Shown piece after piece: positions 23,405-32,225 of a stretch of DNA of 64,000 nt (the stretch's first letter is position 1; every line of letters begins with the position of its first letter). Location of the stretch: assembly GCF_035621355.1 (NCBI RefSeq), contig NZ_CP141769.1, positions 992,001 to 1,056,000 of the forward strand, read 5' to 3'. The position numbers were made by a program, and so were the translations under genes. The notes beneath the pieces were generated by a model, which saw only the letters and a list, made by a program, of their open reading frames with translations, had not been told where the DNA came from and ran no database searches. This DNA is from Thiobacillus sp. SCUT-2. Lineage in GTDB: Bacteria; Pseudomonadota; Gammaproteobacteria; Burkholderiales; Thiobacillaceae.

Positions 23405-24604
23405 CTATTCCGCCCGCAGTGCGTCGACCGGGTTGAGCCGCGCGGCCCGCATCGCCGGGACGACGCCGGCCGCGAGCCCGATCAGCACGGATACCGCAAG
23501 GGCGCCGAATGCGTAGTCCCATGGCGTATTGACCGGCAGGCCGCTCACCGTGGCCTTCAGCAGCCAGGCGATGCCGATGCCGACCGCCAGCCCGCCGACG
23601 CCGCCGAGCGTGGAGAGCACGGTCGATTCCATCAGGAACAGCGTGCGGATGCGCGCGCGCGTCGCGCCGAGCGCGGTGAGCAGGCCGATCTCGGCGACGC
23701 GCTCGGCCACCGCGATGTGCATCAGCGTGACCATGCCGACCGCACCGACCAGCAGCGAAATGCCGCCGAGCGCGGCGACCGCGAAGGTCAGCACGTCGAG
23801 CACCGTGGAGAGCGTGTCGAGCATCTGCTGCTGCGGCGTGACCGTGAAATCCTCGCGGCCGTGGCGCGCAACGAGGATGCGCTTGATGTCGGCGACCACC
23901 GCCGGCACCGGTGATCCCGGCTTGTAGGCGACGTGGATCTCCATCACGCCTTCGCGGTTGAATACCTCCAGCGCGCGTGCGGTGGGGATGTAGACGGTGT
24001 CGTCGAGGTCGAAGCCGAGCACCTGGCCCTTGGGCGCCATGACGCCGACGATGCGGAAGCGGGTCGCGCCGACCTGCAGGACGGCGCCAAGCGGGTTGGC
24101 GTGGCCGAACAGTTCGCTGCGGACCTTCGATCCCAGCACGGCGTAGGCGCGCGGGTTGCGCGGATCGTCGGGCGGCAGGAACTGGCCGACCGCGACGTGC
24201 ATGCTGAAGGCACGCGAGAAATCCGGCCCTTCGCCGTAGACGGTCACGCGCCGGCTGCGGCCGTGGGCGCGGATTTCCGCGTTGCCCATGACGCCGGCGT
24301 TGGTGTATTGCGCGAAGCGCGACGCCTTGAGGGCGAGCTCGTCGTCGATCGTCAGCAGCCGCACGCTGCCGATGGCGCCGACCGAGGCGCCGTGGGTCAT
24401 CGTCTTGCCCGGGCTGATGTTGACGATGTTGGTGCCGAACTGGGTGAATTCGGCGAGCACGAAGCGGTGGATGCCGTGGCCGATCGAGGTCAGCAGGATC
24501 ACCGCGGCTATGCCGACGGCGATCCCCGATGCGGACAGGAAGGTGCGCAGCCGGTGGGCGGTGAGCGCGTGCAGGGCGAAGCGCAGGGTGTCGGCGGCGC
24601 TCAT
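23405..24604 (-). CDS. MacB-type ABC transporter permease (second copy)
   Basis: 399-residue permease of the FtsX/MacB family. One transmembrane helix near residues 20-40 is followed by a large periplasmic MacB_PCD domain and three C-terminal helices within the FtsX domain; the 'ERVAEIGLLTALGATRARI' loop is the coupling segment to the ATPase. The start overlaps the stop of the upstream permease by four bases (ATGA). Type VII ABC systems usually use a permease dimer; two different permease genes here suggest a heterodimer. No fused ATPase domain is present. Substrate unknown. Confidence 0.85.
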   Translation of the reverse strand: MSAADTLRFALHALTAHRLRTFLSASGIAVGIAAVILLTSIGHGIHRFVLAEFTQFGTNIVNISPGKTMTHGASVGAIGSVRLLTIDDELALKASRFAQYTNAGVMGNAEIRAHGRSRRVTVYGEGPDFSRAFSMHVAVGQFLPPDDPRNPRAYAVLGSKVRSELFGHANPLGAVLQVGATRFRIVGVMAPKGQVLGFDLDDTVYIPTARALEVFNREGVMEIHVAYKPGSPVPAVVADIKRILVARHGREDFTVTPQQQMLDTLSTVLDVLTFAVAALGGISLLVGAVGMVTLMHIAVAERVAEIGLLTALGATRARIRTLFLMESTVLSTLGGVGGLAVGIGIAWLLKATVSGLPVNTPWDYAFGALAVSVLIGLAAGVVPAMRAARLNPVDALRAE

Positions 24605-25799
24605 TTTCCGGAGAGGGCGAGCACGGGGTCGAGCCGCGCGGCGCGCGCGGCGGGCAGCAGGCTGGCGACGACGCCGGTCAGCAGCGCCGTGGCGACGGCA
24701 GCGATGCTTGCCCAGGCCGGCGGATAGGCCGGCAGCTGCGGATAGGCCACGCGGATGAAATAGCTGCCGGCGTGACCGAGCGCGAAGCCGATCGCGCTGC
24801 CGGCCAGCGACAGCCACAGCGCCTCGGCGAAGAACAGGCGGCGGATGTCGGCCGCCGGCGCGCCGATCGCCTTCAGCAGGCCGATCTCCGCCGTGCGCTG
24901 GGCGACCGCGACCAGCATCACGTTCATCACCAGGATGCCGGCCACGGCCAGGCTGATCGCGGCGATGCCCGCCACCCCCAGCGTCAGTGCACGCAGGATG
25001 CGGTCGAAGGTGGCGAGCACGGCGTCCTGGGTGATGACGGTGACGTCCTCCTCGCCTTCGTGGCGCAGCGTGAGGAGATGGGTGACCGCGGCCTTGGCCG
25101 GCTCGATCGCGGCGCGGCTCTTCGCCTCGACCAGGATGCGGAACAGCGTCGAGGTGTTGAACAGCTCCTGCGCGTAGTCGACCGGGATGATGACGATCTC
25201 GTCGGAGTTGAATCCCATCGACTCGCCCTGCGGCGCGAGCACGCCGGTCACCAGGAAGCGGCTGGCGCCGAGCCGCACGCGCTGGCCGACCGCGTGTCCG
25301 TCGGGAAAGAATTCGCGCGCCAGCACGCTGCCCAGCACGATCTGCGCGCGCTCGGTGCCGCCGCCCGCGAGGAAGCGGCCCTGCGCCAGTTTCATGTGGC
25401 GGATCGGCAGCAGGTCGGCGGTGCTGCCGAGCACGGTCACCTCGCGCAGCCGCCCGCCGGCGGCGAGTTCGGCGACGCCGACGTTGAGCGGCGCCATCCG
25501 GCGCACCTGCGGCAGGTGGGTGAGCGAGACGGCGTCATCGAGGGTGAGATCGCGCGGCGTCTGGCCGAGCGCGGCGCCGGGGAAGCCGCCCGCGGTTTCG
25601 GCGCGGCCCGGCAGCACGATGACGAGGTTGGTGCCGAGCGAGGAGAACTGTCCGACGACATAGCGCCGTGCGCCGTCGCCAAGCGCGGTCAGGACCACCA
25701 CCGCCGCCACGCCGAGCGACATCGCCAGCACGATCAGCAGCGAGCGGGTGCGATAGCTCGCGACCGTCGCGAACGAGAGCTTCAGGGTGTCGAGCGCGG

Positions 25800-25803
<4 letters not shown>
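24601..25803 (-). CDS. MacB-type ABC transporter permease (first copy)
   Basis: 400 residues with the same plan as the next gene: helix at about 20-42, periplasmic domain, three C-terminal helices, and the 'QRTAEIGLLKAIGAPAADIR' coupling loop. The two permeases are clearly homologous but diverged through the periplasmic part. Overlaps the ATPase gene by four bases. It is expected to pair with the downstream permease and to transmit ATPase motion to the periplasm rather than to form a channel, as known for MacB. Confidence 0.87.
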
Positions 25804-26467
<664 letters not shown>

Positions 26468-26471
<4 letters not shown>

Positions 26472-27619
26472 GGCGCGGCCTTCGGGGTGACTTTCACCCC
26501 GGCCTTCACGCCTTCCTGGTCGAACGACAGCAGGACGCGGTCGCCGGCCGCGAGGCCGTCCGTCACCTCCGTGTACGCCCAGTTGGCGAGCCCGGTCTTG
26601 ATGCGGCGCGTCTCGAGCCGGTCGTCCTTGCCGAGGACCAGCACCGTCCCGTCCTGCTGGATCGCCTGGGTCGGCACGCGCAGCGCGTCGTCGTGGCGCG
26701 CGACGATGGCTTCGACGTCGGCGCTGTAGCCGACCAGCAGGGCTTGCCGCGGCGGCGCGTCGAAGTCGACCTCGACGTCGACCGTGCGCGCCTGCTTCTC
26801 GACCTCGGTCACATAGGGCGCGAGGCGCCGCACGTGCCCCGGGAAGGTCTTGCCCGGCAGCGCGTCGAGCGTGATACGGGCAGCCTGGCCGGGCTGCAGG
26901 CGCGGCGCGTCGACCTCGTCCATCGGTGCGCTGACGTAGAGGCAGCTGTCGTCGATCAGGTCGACCGCGGGTGGCGTCGGGATGCCGGGCGGCGAAGGCG
27001 TGGTGAACTCGCCAACTTCGCCGGTGACCTTGGCGACGATGCCGGCGAACGGCGCGGTCAGCGTGGTGCGCTCCAGCCCGGCGAGCGCGACGCGGACCTG
27101 GGCCTGGGCACGCTTGACGTCGGCGGCGAGCGCATCGCAGCTGGCGCGGCGCGAGCGCGCATCGGCGCGCGCATCCTCGGCGCGCTGCGGGCTGACGAAG
27201 CCCTGCGCGGCGAGCTGCTGCGTGCGGTCGGCATCGCGCTGCGCATTGTCGGCGAGAATGCAGGCCTCGCGGCGCCGTTCCTCGCTGGTGGCGAGCTGGC
27301 GGTTGGCCAGTTCGCGCTGCGCCGCCAGGTCGCGGTTCCACAGTTCCAACAGGGGCTGGCCGGCCTTGACGCGCTCGCCTTCCTTGACTTCCATCTTCAC
27401 GATCTGGCCACCCGCGACCGGCGCGAGCTTGGCGCGCCGGCAGGCCTTGACCGTGCCGGCACGCGTGTTGACCACGGTCGATTCGACGGGGCCGCGCGCA
27501 ATCGTCGCCACCTCGACCTCGGGTGGCTTGGGGCGCGTGAGGCGCCAGCCGGCAAAGACGAGGGCGGCGGCGACAAGGGTGAAGACGACGAGTCGAAGCC
27601 CGGTTTTCGGTTTGATCAT
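26468..27619 (-). CDS. Periplasmic adaptor subunit (HlyD/MacA family)
   Basis: 383 residues. A membrane anchor at about 8-27 leads to a lipoyl-like half ('KMEVKEGERVKAGQPLLELWNRD'), a helical hairpin at about 95-165 and the second lipoyl half ('LTAPFAGIVAKVTGEVGEF'), then beta-barrel and membrane-proximal domains. This is the normal plan of MacA-like adaptors that bridge the inner-membrane ABC transporter to an outer-membrane channel. No outer-membrane factor gene lies nearby. Confidence 0.88.
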
Positions 27620-27694
27620 GAGCGGGAGAAGACGGCAGGCGATCGGCTCAATTTAACATTTCCGCAGGCGGGCGCGTGCCGTGCACCGCGCTGT

Positions 27695-29026
27695 TCACTG
27701 CTTGAGCACGCACTTCTGGTAGAGATCCTTCGCCCGGCCCTCGGGGTCGTATTTCGCCTTCAGCGCCCGGTAGGCCGGCCCGCCGTAGAGCGTCCAGAAG
27801 CGCGCCTCGTCGAAGTACGCGTCCGAATACAGCGACTTGATGCCGCCGAGTTCGGTGACCTTGCCTTCGACGAGGCGGTTGTGGTGGCCGGGCGCGAAGG
27901 GGTGGCGCCGTCGCACCACGTCCCAGAAGCCGAAGTTCACGTGGAGCGCGTCCCGCATCGGAAACAGGGTGAAGCGGACGTCGCTGCGGTAAGGCCGCAC
28001 CGGGCAGCTCCAGATCGGCAGGATGCCGATCTCGCGGTGGAAGAAATCGAGGAAGGCGACCGCGTGAGCCAGCGGAATGTCCACGTCCTGGATCACCGAC
28101 TCGCGCTGCACGCCGAGCAGCCGGTCGAGCCGGCCGGTGACACCCCACTTGCTGTTCCAGCGCATGACCTGGGTGTAGAAGACCGAGTTCAGCCGCTCGC
28201 GGCCCAGCAGGCGGCGGACGAGCGGATTCTGCGCGCCGAGGTTCTTCGAACACCAGAACCAGTCCGTGTCCCAGCGCCAGAGGTAGTCGCGGACGGTGAG
28301 ATAGTCGGTCGCGCGCTCGCGCAGGCTGCGGTAATAGATCCGCTTGTACGTGTAGTCGCTGGTCCAGGGCGCCGTGTCGACGAAGTGCCCCTGGCTCAGG
28401 ATCAATTCGTCGGGCGCGAACACCACGCCGTCGACGAAGTCGGCATCGCCCTCGCAGGCCGCTTCGAGCGCGGCGAAGAAGGCGGCGGGCTCGGCGAAGC
28501 GCGCGTGGGTCACCTGGACGAACGGCTTGACCGGAACGGCCAGCGCCTTCAGCTTCAGCGCATAGCCCAGCGTCCCGTAGGAATTGGGAAAGCCGTAGAA
28601 CAGATCGCGGTGTTCGTTGTCCGGCGTCGCGAGCACGACGCGGCCGTCGGGCAGCAGGATTTCCAGCTCCTGCAGCGTCTCGTGCACCAGGCCGTAGCGG
28701 AACGACGTCGCCTCGATGCCGACGCCCGCCGCCGCGCCGCCGATCGTGATCGATTTCAGCTGCGGCACCACCGCCGGCATCAGGCCGTGCGGCAGCAGCG
28801 CGTCGACCAGCCTGGCGTAGGGCGTCATGCCCTCGACGGTGAACTCGCGCGCATCGCGGTCGATGTCGAGCACCTCGTTGAAGGCGCGCACGTCGAGCCG
28901 CTGCTTCGCCTGCCGCGCGCGGTCGCGGAACAGGTTGGACGTGTCCTTGGCAAGCCCAAGCGGCGCGCTGCCGCCGGTCGCGCGCAGCTGCGCGGCGAGC
29001 TTCCGGAGCTTGTCTTCGTGGCTCAT
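27695..29026 (-). CDS. FAD-binding oxidoreductase, DHCR24/TmsA-like
   Basis: 443-residue flavoprotein of the FAD_binding_4 (VAO/PCMH) type. The N-terminal FAD domain includes 'QLKSITIGGAAAGVGIEATSFRYGLVHE', the pyrophosphate-binding loop of sterol-reductase (DHCR24)-like proteins, and a C-terminal substrate domain rich in aromatic residues. It starts on a CAT that overlaps the stop of the Cfa-like methyltransferase gene. In actinobacteria a homologous flavoprotein (TmsA) reduces the methylene intermediate made by a Cfa-like methyltransferase (TmsB), giving 10-methyl fatty acids. The same pairing here suggests a similar role, by inference. Confidence 0.8.
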   Translation of the reverse strand: MSHEDKLRKLAAQLRATGGSAPLGLAKDTSNLFRDRARQAKQRLDVRAFNEVLDIDRDAREFTVEGMTPYARLVDALLPHGLMPAVVPQLKSITIGGAAAGVGIEATSFRYGLVHETLQELEILLPDGRVVLATPDNEHRDLFYGFPNSYGTLGYALKLKALAVPVKPFVQVTHARFAEPAAFFAALEAACEGDADFVDGVVFAPDELILSQGHFVDTAPWTSDYTYKRIYYRSLRERATDYLTVRDYLWRWDTDWFWCSKNLGAQNPLVRRLLGRERLNSVFYTQVMRWNSKWGVTGRLDRLLGVQRESVIQDVDIPLAHAVAFLDFFHREIGILPIWSCPVRPYRSDVRFTLFPMRDALHVNFGFWDVVRRRHPFAPGHHNRLVEGKVTELGGIKSLYSDAYFDEARFWTLYGGPAYRALKAKYDPEGRAKDLYQKCVLKQ

Positions 29027-30246
29027 CGGTAGAGGAAGGCGCGGCTCATCGGATAGCGCTCGCGGTCGACGTTGCCCTTGCTGAACACGATCTGGAACAG
29101 GTGCGTCATGCCGCACGGCGAACGGAACATTTCGGCGCAGGACCACAGGTAGGTGCGCCAGGTGCGGCGGAAGCGCTCGTCGAAGCGCTGCGGGTCGAGC
29201 GCGTGGATCGCGTCCCAGCGCGCGTCGAAGCGGGTCGCCCAGGCGTCGAGCGTGAGCGCGTAGTGGCGGCGCAGGTTCTCGATGTCGACGATCTCCAGAC
29301 CGCATGCATCCATGGCCTCGATCGTCTGCGCCAGGCTGGGGATCCAGCCGCCCGGAAAGATGTGCTTGCGGATGTAGAACTCGGTGTCGAACACGCCGGC
29401 GTGGCCGATGAAATGCAGCATGCCGAGGCCGCCGGGCTTCAGCGCGTCGGCGTGGGCGCGCACCACCGCATGCAGCTGGTCGCGGCCGGCATGCTCCAGC
29501 ACGCCGATCGACACGAGCTTGTCGTACTGGCCGGGAATCTCGCGGAAGTCGGCCTCGATTACCGCGATCTGCTCGCCCAGCCCGCGCCGCGCGATCTCGC
29601 CCTGCAGCCACTGCACCTGTTCGGTCGTCGTGTTGATGCCGGTTCCGTACGCGCCGTAGTGCTCCCGGGCATGGAACAGGAAGCCGCCGAAGCCGCAGCC
29701 GATATCGACGAAGCGCTCGCCCGCCTCGAGGCGGATCTTCTGCGCGACGTGATCCATCTTGTTGCGCTGCGCCTCCTCGACGGTTTGCGTGCCTTCCTTC
29801 CAGTAGCCGCAGGTGTACATCATCGACGGCAGGTCGAGCCACTGGCGATAGAAATCGGTGCCGAGTCCGTAGTGGAAGCGTGCATTGGCCTTGGCCTGGG
29901 CAAGGCTGGCATTGCCGAAGCGCACTTCGTGCCACGCGTTGCGCAGCCGCAGCAGGCCTGCCGGCGGGCCGTCGAGTCCCATGTCCATGCCGGTTCGGAA
30001 GGCCAGCTGCAGGTTGCCTTCGATGTCGACGTCGCCGGCGAAATACGATTCCAGCAGGCCGACGTGCCGGAACACGGCGGTGCGCCACTCGGCGCGGCGA
30101 TTGCGGAAGACGAGGGTGAACGAGGGTTCGCCCTCGCGGCTCCGGCAGGTGCGGCCGTCGGCGAACACGATGCGGAAGGTCGCGCCGGCCCGGCCGGCGT
30201 CCCGGGTCAGCAGCGTGCGTATCGTGCGGAGCATCGCGGACATCAT
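29023..30246 (-). CDS. SAM-dependent lipid methyltransferase, cyclopropane-fatty-acyl-phospholipid synthase family
   Basis: 407 residues. A 100-residue N-terminal segment ('VFRHVGLLESYFAGDVDIEGNL') is the lipid-binding part typical of Cfa. The SAM site is 'FVDIGCGFGGFLFHA' and the family signature 'HYGLGTDFYRQWLD...MMYTCGYW' is complete, as is the 'SIGVLEHAG' bicarbonate-site segment. It methylates acyl-chain double bonds of membrane phospholipids. The product is a cyclopropane if it acts alone, or a methyl branch if the following flavoprotein reduces the intermediate. The start may be the ATG at 30246, 30243 or 30234; none has a strong ribosome site. Confidence 0.87.
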   Translation of the reverse strand: MMSAMLRTIRTLLTRDAGRAGATFRIVFADGRTCRSREGEPSFTLVFRNRRAEWRTAVFRHVGLLESYFAGDVDIEGNLQLAFRTGMDMGLDGPPAGLLRLRNAWHEVRFGNASLAQAKANARFHYGLGTDFYRQWLDLPSMMYTCGYWKEGTQTVEEAQRNKMDHVAQKIRLEAGERFVDIGCGFGGFLFHAREHYGAYGTGINTTTEQVQWLQGEIARRGLGEQIAVIEADFREIPGQYDKLVSIGVLEHAGRDQLHAVVRAHADALKPGGLGMLHFIGHAGVFDTEFYIRKHIFPGGWIPSLAQTIEAMDACGLEIVDIENLRRHYALTLDAWATRFDARWDAIHALDPQRFDERFRRTWRTYLWSCAEMFRSPCGMTHLFQIVFSKGNVDRERYPMSRAFLYR

Positions 30247-30407
30247 GCCGTCCGCCGTTACGGGGCCGCAGGGATGCGCCGGTGCCGGGCGACGCGCGCT
30301 GCGCCGCCCGTCGTGCGATCCTGATGGTCCGCGCCCGGAAAAGAAGCCATGCTCCCAGCATAGACAACCGGCCGCCGGCGCGCGGGCGGCCAAGGTAACA
30401 TTCGCCC

Positions 30408-32225
30408 ATGCTGAAGACCATCGTGCCGGCGCGCCTCGAATACCGCGAGGGCGTGCCGTATTCCGCCGCCTACGGCGACATCTACCATTCCGCCGACGGC
30501 GGCCTCGGCCAGGCGCGCCACGTGTTCCTGCAGGGCTGCGGCCTGCCGCAGGCGTGGGCGGGCCGTGCGTGCTTCGTGGTGCTCGAAACCGGCTTCGGCA
30601 CCGGGCTCAATTTCCTGGCCACCTGGGCGGCCTGGCGCGCCGATCCGGCGCGTCCCGCGCGCCTGCATTTCCTGTCGGTGGAGAAGCATCCCTTCGTCGC
30701 CGAGGACCTGGCGGTGCTGCACGCGCAATGGCCCGAGTTCGCCGCGCTGTCGCAGGAACTGCGCGCCGGCTGGCCGATGCTGACGCCGGGCTTCCACCGC
30801 ATCGCGCTCGACGGCGGGCGGGTGCAGCTGACGCTGATGCTGGGCGATGCGCTCGACTGCCTGCCGCAGGTCGAGGCCGAGGTGGACGCGTTCTACCTCG
30901 ACGGCTTCGCCCCCGATTGCAATGCCGACCTGTGGCAGCCGCCGCTCTTCGACGTGCTGGCGCGGCTGGCGCGTCCCGGTGCGACGGCGGCGACCTATAC
31001 GGTGGCGGCGCCGGTTCGCGAGGGGCTGGCGCGCGCTGGCTTCGCCTGCGAGAAGCGCAGCGGCTTCGGCCGCAAGCGGCATTGCCTTGCGGCACGATTC
31101 GCTGGGGAAGGCCGCCGCACGAGGCCGCGCGTGCCGCAGCACGTCGCGGTCGTCGGCGCCGGCGTGGCCGGCTGCGCGACGGCCCACGCGCTGGCGTGGC
31201 ACGGGATCGCCGTCACGGTGCTGGAGCGGGCCGCAGGGATCGGGCAGGGCGCGTCCGGCAATCCGGTCGCGGTGTTCCGCCCGCTGGTCTCGCGCGACGA
31301 CAACCCCGCCAGCCGCCTGACGCGTGCGGCCTTCCTGCACGACCTGCGGGCCTGGCCCGCGCTCGGCGAGCGCCTGGACTGGTCGGCGTGCGGCGTGCTG
31401 CACCTGGCGCGCGACGCCGACGCTGCGCTCAAGCAGCGGCAGGCGCTCGCCGCAACCGCGCCGCCGGCCGGATATGCACGCTGGGTCGAGCGCGACGAAG
31501 CGCGGCAGCTGGCGAACTGGCCGGTCGACGCCGCAGGCGTGTTCTATCCGGCCGCGGGATGGGTGGTGCCGGCAAGCCTGGCGCGCGCCTGGCTCGACCA
31601 TCCGGCGATCAAGTTGCGCGCCGGCTGCGGCGTCGCACGGCTCGCACCGGGTGGATCGGGCTGGCAGCTGCATGCGGCCGACGGGGACGTGCTGGCCGAG
31701 GCCGATGCGGTGGTGCTGGCGAACGCGCGCGACGCGGCGGCGCTCGCTCCGGGGCAGGACTGGCCGCTGCACACGGTGCGGGGGCAGATCACCGAGCTGC
31801 CGCCGGGCTGCCTGCCGGAGCTCACCCGGGTGGTCTCGCGCGAGGGCTACGTGGCGCCCGGCACGCGGCCGCTGGTCGGCGCGACCTACGAGCATGACGA
31901 CGACGACACGGCGCCGCGCGCGGCGAGCGACCAGGCCAACCTGGCGCGCCTGGAGGCGATCCTGCCGGGAGGCCGAAGCCGCGTGGCGATCGAGGCCGTG
32001 CGCGGCCGCGCATCCTTGCGCGCGACGCTGCCGGACCGGCTGCCGCTGGTCGGCGCGGTGGCGGAATGCTCGGGGGTCTATGTCGCGGCAGGCTATGCCT
32101 CGCGCGGCGTGGTGTGGGCCGGCTTGCTGGGCGAGGCCCTGGCGGACCGCATGAGCGGGCAGCCGTTGCCGCTGGAGAACGATCTGATGGGGGTGCTTGC
32201 GCCCGAGCGCTTCAGGCGGCGGTGA
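30408..32225 (+). CDS. mnmC: Bifunctional tRNA 5-methylaminomethyl-2-thiouridine synthesis enzyme MnmC
   Basis: Finishes mnm5s2U at tRNA wobble position 34. The N-terminal methyltransferase half has the SAM motif ETGFGTGLNF near residue 49 and 'DAFYLDGFAP' around 163; the C-terminal half is an FAD oxidoreductase beginning 'VAVVGAGVAGCATAHAL' near 246 that removes carboxymethyl from cmnm5s2U. The 605-residue length fits the fused form. The gene is divergent from the lipid methyltransferase gene across 161 bases and its 3' end overlaps flgN, on the other strand, by 14 bases. Confidence 0.93.
   Translation: MLKTIVPARLEYREGVPYSAAYGDIYHSADGGLGQARHVFLQGCGLPQAWAGRACFVVLETGFGTGLNFLATWAAWRADPARPARLHFLSVEKHPFVAEDLAVLHAQWPEFAALSQELRAGWPMLTPGFHRIALDGGRVQLTLMLGDALDCLPQVEAEVDAFYLDGFAPDCNADLWQPPLFDVLARLARPGATAATYTVAAPVREGLARAGFACEKRSGFGRKRHCLAARFAGEGRRTRPRVPQHVAVVGAGVAGCATAHALAWHGIAVTVLERAAGIGQGASGNPVAVFRPLVSRDDNPASRLTRAAFLHDLRAWPALGERLDWSACGVLHLARDADAALKQRQALAATAPPAGYARWVERDEARQLANWPVDAAGVFYPAAGWVVPASLARAWLDHPAIKLRAGCGVARLAPGGSGWQLHAADGDVLAEADAVVLANARDAAALAPGQDWPLHTVRGQITELPPGCLPELTRVVSREGYVAPGTRPLVGATYEHDDDDTAPRAASDQANLARLEAILPGGRSRVAIEAVRGRASLRATLPDRLPLVGAVAECSGVYVAAGYASRGVVWAGLLGEALADRMSGQPLPLENDLMGVLAPERFRRR

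Follow-up and report, generated by a model that had tools for sequence, protein, structure and literature searches.

A BfaA-family flavoprotein gene coupled to a Cfa-family methyltransferase gene in Thiobacillus sp. SCUT-2 and its predicted role in methyl-branched fatty acid synthesis

Mid-chain methyl-branched fatty acids such as 10-methyl-16:0 serve as signature lipids by which particular microbes are recognized, and they are targets for bio-lubricants. Both the chemistry and the reductase family are already known: in the characterized relatives, a delta-9 chain is methylated from SAM to a 10-methylene chain, which is then reduced with NADPH (PMC7791843). The known bfa genes come from actinobacteria, and the known tmp genes from Desulfobacteraceae and two gammaproteobacteria (PMC5660069; PMC7791843). 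The window analyzed here, a stretch of 64,000 nucleotides from Thiobacillus sp. SCUT-2, carries a Cfa-family methyltransferase gene followed by a flavoprotein gene, which raises the question of whether the pair makes methyl-branched acids or whether the methyltransferase is one more cyclopropane synthase. The evidence set out below makes it very probable that the pair turns unsaturated membrane fatty acids into methyl-branched, not cyclopropane, acids via a methylene intermediate.

Both genes lie on the minus strand. The first encodes a Cfa-family SAM-dependent methyltransferase of 407 aa (P0002; 29023..30246; Pfam CMAS, 227 bits with a cut-off of 27 bits), and the second a BfaA/TmsA-family FAD flavoprotein of 443 aa (P0001; 27695..29026; FAD_binding_4, 54 bits with a cut-off of 26 bits). 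The stop codon of P0002 and the start codon of P0001 share the 4 nt ATGA (29023..29026, minus strand) within the junction CTCTACCGATGAGCC (CTC TAC CGA TGA / ATG AGC CAC), and sequence and Pfam agree with the initial annotation on the coordinates, the four-base overlap and the description of the two genes. The start of P0002 is ambiguous between M1, M2 and M5, with most homologues aligning from about residue 5. Around the pair, no sigma-70 promoter match was found, and terminator matches were near chance level only. Outside the module, a gene for a HlyD-family adaptor lies to the left (26468..27619, minus strand; Pfam) and mnmC to the right (30408..32225, plus strand; NCBIfam equivalog, 736 bits). 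The adaptor gene, an ABC ATPase gene and two genes for MacB-like permeases (23405-27619, minus strand) begin 75 bp downstream of the flavoprotein gene, and they may now receive read-through from the pair.

Of the 29 genus relatives inspected, 22 lack the pair and have hlyD and mnmC side by side in divergent orientation, about 45 bp apart; a single box, CAATGTAACATTCG, is conserved before mnmC in the relatives with this gap. In the window, the pair occupies 2.8 kb between hlyD and mnmC, with the insert flanked on both sides by a diverged copy of the box (CTCAATTTAACATTTCC at 27648..27666 on the left and CCAAGGTAACATTCG at 30389..30407 on the right). The simplest reading would be an insertion at the box, with duplication of the box. 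No recombinase gene was found within the inserted stretch, its GC content (67.6%) equals the window mean and gives no foreign mark, and mnmC does not stand beside the related pairs of the family within the flank read. The flavoprotein is carried by 11 of 117 genomes of the family and, among 56 of the genus, by the window genome alone. Because P0001 and P0002 group with the same Thiobacillaceae/Hydrogenophilaceae relatives in both protein trees, the two genes appear to have moved together.

The flavoprotein is the more easily placed of the two enzymes. P0001 aligns over its full length with actinobacterial BfaA (=TmsA)-type proteins (43-55% identity) and with plasmid-borne actinobacterial copies (43-48%). 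An alignment of 17 flavoproteins contains long invariant blocks, e.g., WRWDTDWFWCS and NSYGxLGY, and the reductase residues are strongly conserved. A contig scan gave at least 595 relatives, the best 80 of which come from Thiobacillaceae, Burkholderiales, several gammaproteobacterial groups, Nitrospira, Amycolatopsis, Saccharopolyspora, Geminicoccaceae and candidate phyla. In the tree, these proteins form one family (SH-aLRT 98, starred) with the actinobacterial BfaA type nested inside, and other FAD_binding_4 proteins are the outgroup, a long branch away; P0001 did not fall among unrelated FAD oxidases, the placement named in advance as contrary to a TmsA assignment. The BfaA anchors were assigned by synteny and genus and are not the assayed proteins themselves; in the Tsukamurella anchor, a divergent SRPBCC/polyketide-cyclase gene is followed by the FAD gene and then the methyltransferase gene, which agrees with the published bfaAB layout (PMC5660069). 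The AF2 model of P0001 (pLDDT 89) has a flavoprotein fold like that of cytokinin dehydrogenase and DprE1. Judged by sequence, P0001 is thus a member of the BfaA/TmsA family, as had been proposed from the gene pair. BfaA of T. curvata converts 10-methylene to 10-methyl chains with NADPH and not NADH (PMC7791843), and P0001 is a putative NADPH-dependent methylene-fatty-acyl reductase.

The methyltransferase had been likened to TmsB, and this part of the proposal fails. P0002 sits on its own Cfa branch of proteobacterial enzymes (“beta-type”; support 100/100), is 29-31% identical to actinobacterial BfaB and is about equally far from BfaB and Cfa-like enzymes (28-35% identity). An exclusive grouping of its clade with BfaB is rejected by the AU test (p-AU 0.003), and METHYLTRANSFERASE (P0002) was accordingly rejected as a BfaB/TmsB orthologue. 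Identity to the TmpB-like methyltransferases is 33-40%, with a sister placement supported at only 48/45. P0002 does not cluster with E. coli Cfa either, and that place is occupied by another gene of the window genome, L199 (484 bits to E. coli Cfa). The sister of BfaB in the tree is L198, an unpaired Cfa paralogue of the window genome (G000:C1:1593831-1594652), which adjoins a pirin-like gene and also occurs in a second genus member. The AF2 model of P0002 (pLDDT 92) matches the Cfa structures 7qos, 5z9o and 6bqc, and the Cfa bicarbonate site is complete (C146, E251, H278, I280 and Y329 conserved), conservation of these residues being the published criterion for BfaB candidates (PMC7791843). 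In certain columns, the window type, BfaB and TmpB share residues that Cfa lacks (e.g., E323, R326 and H328); because the unpaired L198 has them as well, they may mark ancestry and not product. Comparison of the alignment columns established no residue signature by which methylene-forming members can be told from cyclopropane-forming ones, and it is from the partner P0001 that we infer a methylene rather than a cyclopropane as the product of P0002.

The pairing of the two genes is not chance. The flavoprotein and methyltransferase genes are adjacent in every one of the nine other family members whose locus is unbroken, and -4 overlaps recur in the pairs of relatives. Among 78 named loci with enough flank, 60 show adjacency (42 in the order methyltransferase-flavoprotein, 18 in the reverse) and 18 have no such neighbor. 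In 29 window-type pairs the divergence of the two proteins is correlated (Spearman 0.60, with none of 5000 permutations as high), and the tight coupling suggested by the overlap is borne out by these counts. One BfaA-type reductase is found with several METHYLTRANSFERASES, the partners falling into at least four deep branches of the tree: the window type, BfaB, a TmpB-like type (L079, L049) and an E. coli-Cfa-like type (Nitrospira, Myxococcota and candidate phyla). Four genomes were searched whole, three in which the flavoprotein gene stands alone and one in which its only neighbor is broken; each has a TmpB-like gene elsewhere, without a TmpA neighbor. The broken neighbor (G229, L054:5135-7027) is a window-type methyltransferase in two frames beside an intact flavoprotein gene, and reflects either an ongoing exchange of partners or a fault in the assembly. 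On a 38-kb plasmid of Prescottella sp. R16 (L041:988-6684), two inverted bfa-like copies are present, and in each of them the FAD gene is broken into two frames. Methyltransferase and BfaA-type pairs in both gene orders also appear on contigs of Magasanikbacteria/Patescibacteria and Woesearchaeota (L116, L121, L127, L132), where binning error could be the cause.

A further line of evidence comes from TmpA, the partner of TmpB. If the BfaA type does TmpA’s job in proteobacteria, a genome with a TmpB-like methyltransferase is expected to encode one of these two proteins but not the other. A TmpB-like methyltransferase is present in 47 of 369 genomes of the class. TmpA, called by similarity to one protein (33-64%, the low end of which may include relatives of other function), is present in 34 of the 47 (adjacent in 29, elsewhere in 5), and none of these 34 carries a BfaA-type flavoprotein. 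Ten of the 47 have the BfaA-type protein without TmpA, the two most divergent of these ten flavoproteins being only 36-39% identical to P0001, and three have neither: one genome that is 72% complete, and two with only a distant FAD relative. In the latter two (G144 and G290; L290, L293), the TmpB-like gene is accompanied in the genome by 28%-identical FAD_binding_4 relatives (L033, L035), possibly a third reductase. The exclusion has a Fisher value of 5.5e-8 by genome and 1.8e-5 by family, counts that include the four solitary or broken cases from which the idea arose and which were not blind. Within genus g26, TmpA is found in one genome and a flavoprotein 39% identical to P0001 in another. 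Conversely, 13 of the 14 flavoprotein genomes of the sample, as against 37 of the 355 without it, have a TmpB-like or window-type methyltransferase (p 1.5e-11), and the 14th has a linked Cfa-type gene. The window-type methyltransferase occurs in four other sample genomes, with the flavoprotein adjacent in all four. The window genome itself has neither TmpB nor TmpA (TmpA cut-off E 1e-20), and no TmpA-like protein that could be the true reductase of the host was found at this cut-off. The exclusion points to methylene reduction by the flavoprotein, hence to methyl-branched fatty acids, and in this respect the initial annotation, which had suggested that the product may be branched rather than a cyclopropane, gains in strength. 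TmpB yields 10-methylene-palmitate in E. coli, and the argument is partly indirect because TmpA itself is inactive in E. coli and yeast (PMC7791843).

In the proposed reaction, P0002 would transfer the SAM methyl group to a double-bond carbon of a cis-monounsaturated phospholipid acyl chain, and the outcome would be an exo-methylene instead of cyclopropane closure, so that 16:1 delta-9 would give 10-methylene-palmitate. P0001, charged by NADPH, would then reduce the methylene to a methyl group. The product would be 10-methyl-palmitate (10-methyl-16:0) under the position rule of BfaB and TmpB, and 18:1 delta-11 would by analogy possibly give 12-methyl-stearate (12-methyl-18:0); chemistry, branch position and substrate of the window pair are thus all predicted from relatives. 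When the genome itself was searched for a source of unsaturation, FabA fell below the cut-off and one desaturase scored above it. When the literature was searched for 10-methyl acids of Thiobacillus or other Betaproteobacteria, nothing beyond lumped MIDI features came up; MIDI profiles pool 10-methyl-16:0 with iso-17:1. Thioalkalivibrio versutus, a member of the Gammaproteobacteria, makes 10-Me-16:0 according to the literature.

Three other products have to be weighed. P0002 could be an ordinary cyclopropane synthase paralogue and P0001 act elsewhere, with the operon coincidental or a loose stress-response link; the Cfa fold, the complete bicarbonate site and the lack of an established residue signature between the two kinds of enzyme would all fit. 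This is nevertheless very improbable, given that the flavoprotein has partners from four separate Cfa-family branches, is paired in either gene order and excludes TmpA, that the window-type methyltransferase never occurs without the flavoprotein in the class sample, and that L199 already supplies an E. coli-type Cfa for cyclopropanes, which counts for the methyl-branched reading of the pair.

A second alternative holds that the pair oxidizes, methylation being followed by desaturation by the flavoprotein toward furan or methyl-unsaturated fatty acids, along the lines of the UfaM/UfaD route of Rhodobacter. Most FAD_binding_4 proteins are indeed oxidases or dehydrogenases (such as cytokinin dehydrogenase and DprE1), but the characterized members of the BfaA flavoprotein family are reductases, and a separate cluster of a Cfa-type and a NAD/FAD amine-oxidase-like gene exists elsewhere in the genus, its methyltransferase belonging to another branch, which leaves oxidation by the window pair highly unlikely. 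That cluster is seen in L201, L205, L206 and other genus members, where the further Cfa-type gene lies near genes for the NAD/FAD amine-oxidase-like protein and a MerR-like regulator, an arrangement that resembles the furan-fatty-acid (Ufa) cluster of Rhodobacter. That methylene-branched acids are the end product, with a weak or only conditionally used reductase, would agree with the frequent accumulation of methylene chains in heterologous tests (PMC7791843), but the second gene would then be unneeded, and the strong conservation of the reductase residues and the keeping together of the genes leave this reading next to no probability.

With reduction to methyl-branched acids as the preferred reading, the wider distribution suggests a mix-and-match trait, in which a mobile BfaA-type reductase has been independently coupled to at least four Cfa-family branches (in Actinomycetota, Pseudomonadota, Nitrospirota and candidate phyla) and can be exchanged for the unrelated TmpA; this view is favored here, with some reserve. 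In Nitrospira, a BfaA-type gene directly follows an E. coli-Cfa-like methyltransferase gene (L110:1383-4841; also L114, L131 and L096), and in L110 a fatty-acid-desaturase-like gene lies ahead of the pair. To our knowledge, no enzymes are known for the Nitrospira marker lipid 11-methyl-hexadecanoate. The desaturase-Cfa-BfaA cluster is a candidate source of this acid, reported as a Nitrospira lipid (PMC5516240), and would account for it if the mix-and-match view is true.

In the literature searched, mostly papers available without subscription, no report of a BfaA-type reductase in Proteobacteria was found. As far as that literature goes, the BfaA-type branch in Proteobacteria is new, as are its pairing with methyltransferases other than BfaB and the exclusion with TmpA. 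The BfaA-type reductase is common to many unrelated bacteria, and the trait is predicted, with named genes, for Thiobacillaceae, many Burkholderiales, several gammaproteobacterial groups and Nitrospira. Zeimonas arvi CC-CFT501 and Variovorax paradoxus VAI-C are among the carriers in culture. The candidate genes make the question of the methylene-chain reductase of proteobacteria directly testable, offer a possible reason why some TmpB-like methyltransferases go without TmpA, and provide alternative enzyme pairs ready for expression.

Among known systems, bfaAB/tmsAB of Mycobacterium, Thermomonospora and Thermobifida resembles the window pair in its BfaA-family reductase and Cfa-family partner, its overlapping or touching genes and its full bicarbonate site (PMC5660069; PMC7791843). 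The order there is bfaA then bfaB, whereas in the window the methyltransferase comes first, lies outside the BfaB clade, and is found in a Gram-negative host without an SRPBCC neighbor. The tmpBA genes of Desulfobacter, Marinobacter and Thiohalospira (PMC7791843) share with the window the order methyltransferase-reductase and a proteobacterial host, and TmpB-like methyltransferases are possibly sister to P0002; TmpA, however, is geranylgeranyl-reductase-like and without homology to BfaA, whereas the second gene of the window encodes a FAD_binding_4 protein. The E. coli-type Cfa has its fold and bicarbonate site in common with P0002 but forms a separate branch. DHCR24, DprE1 and cytokinin dehydrogenase have the same type of FAD fold as P0001 and differ in substrate; P0001 is 13-17% identical to its solved flavoprotein relatives, with no DHCR24 structure among the matches. 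DHCR24 also reduces isolated C=C bonds with NADPH, and the label “DHCR24-like” given to P0001 is a reasonable one.
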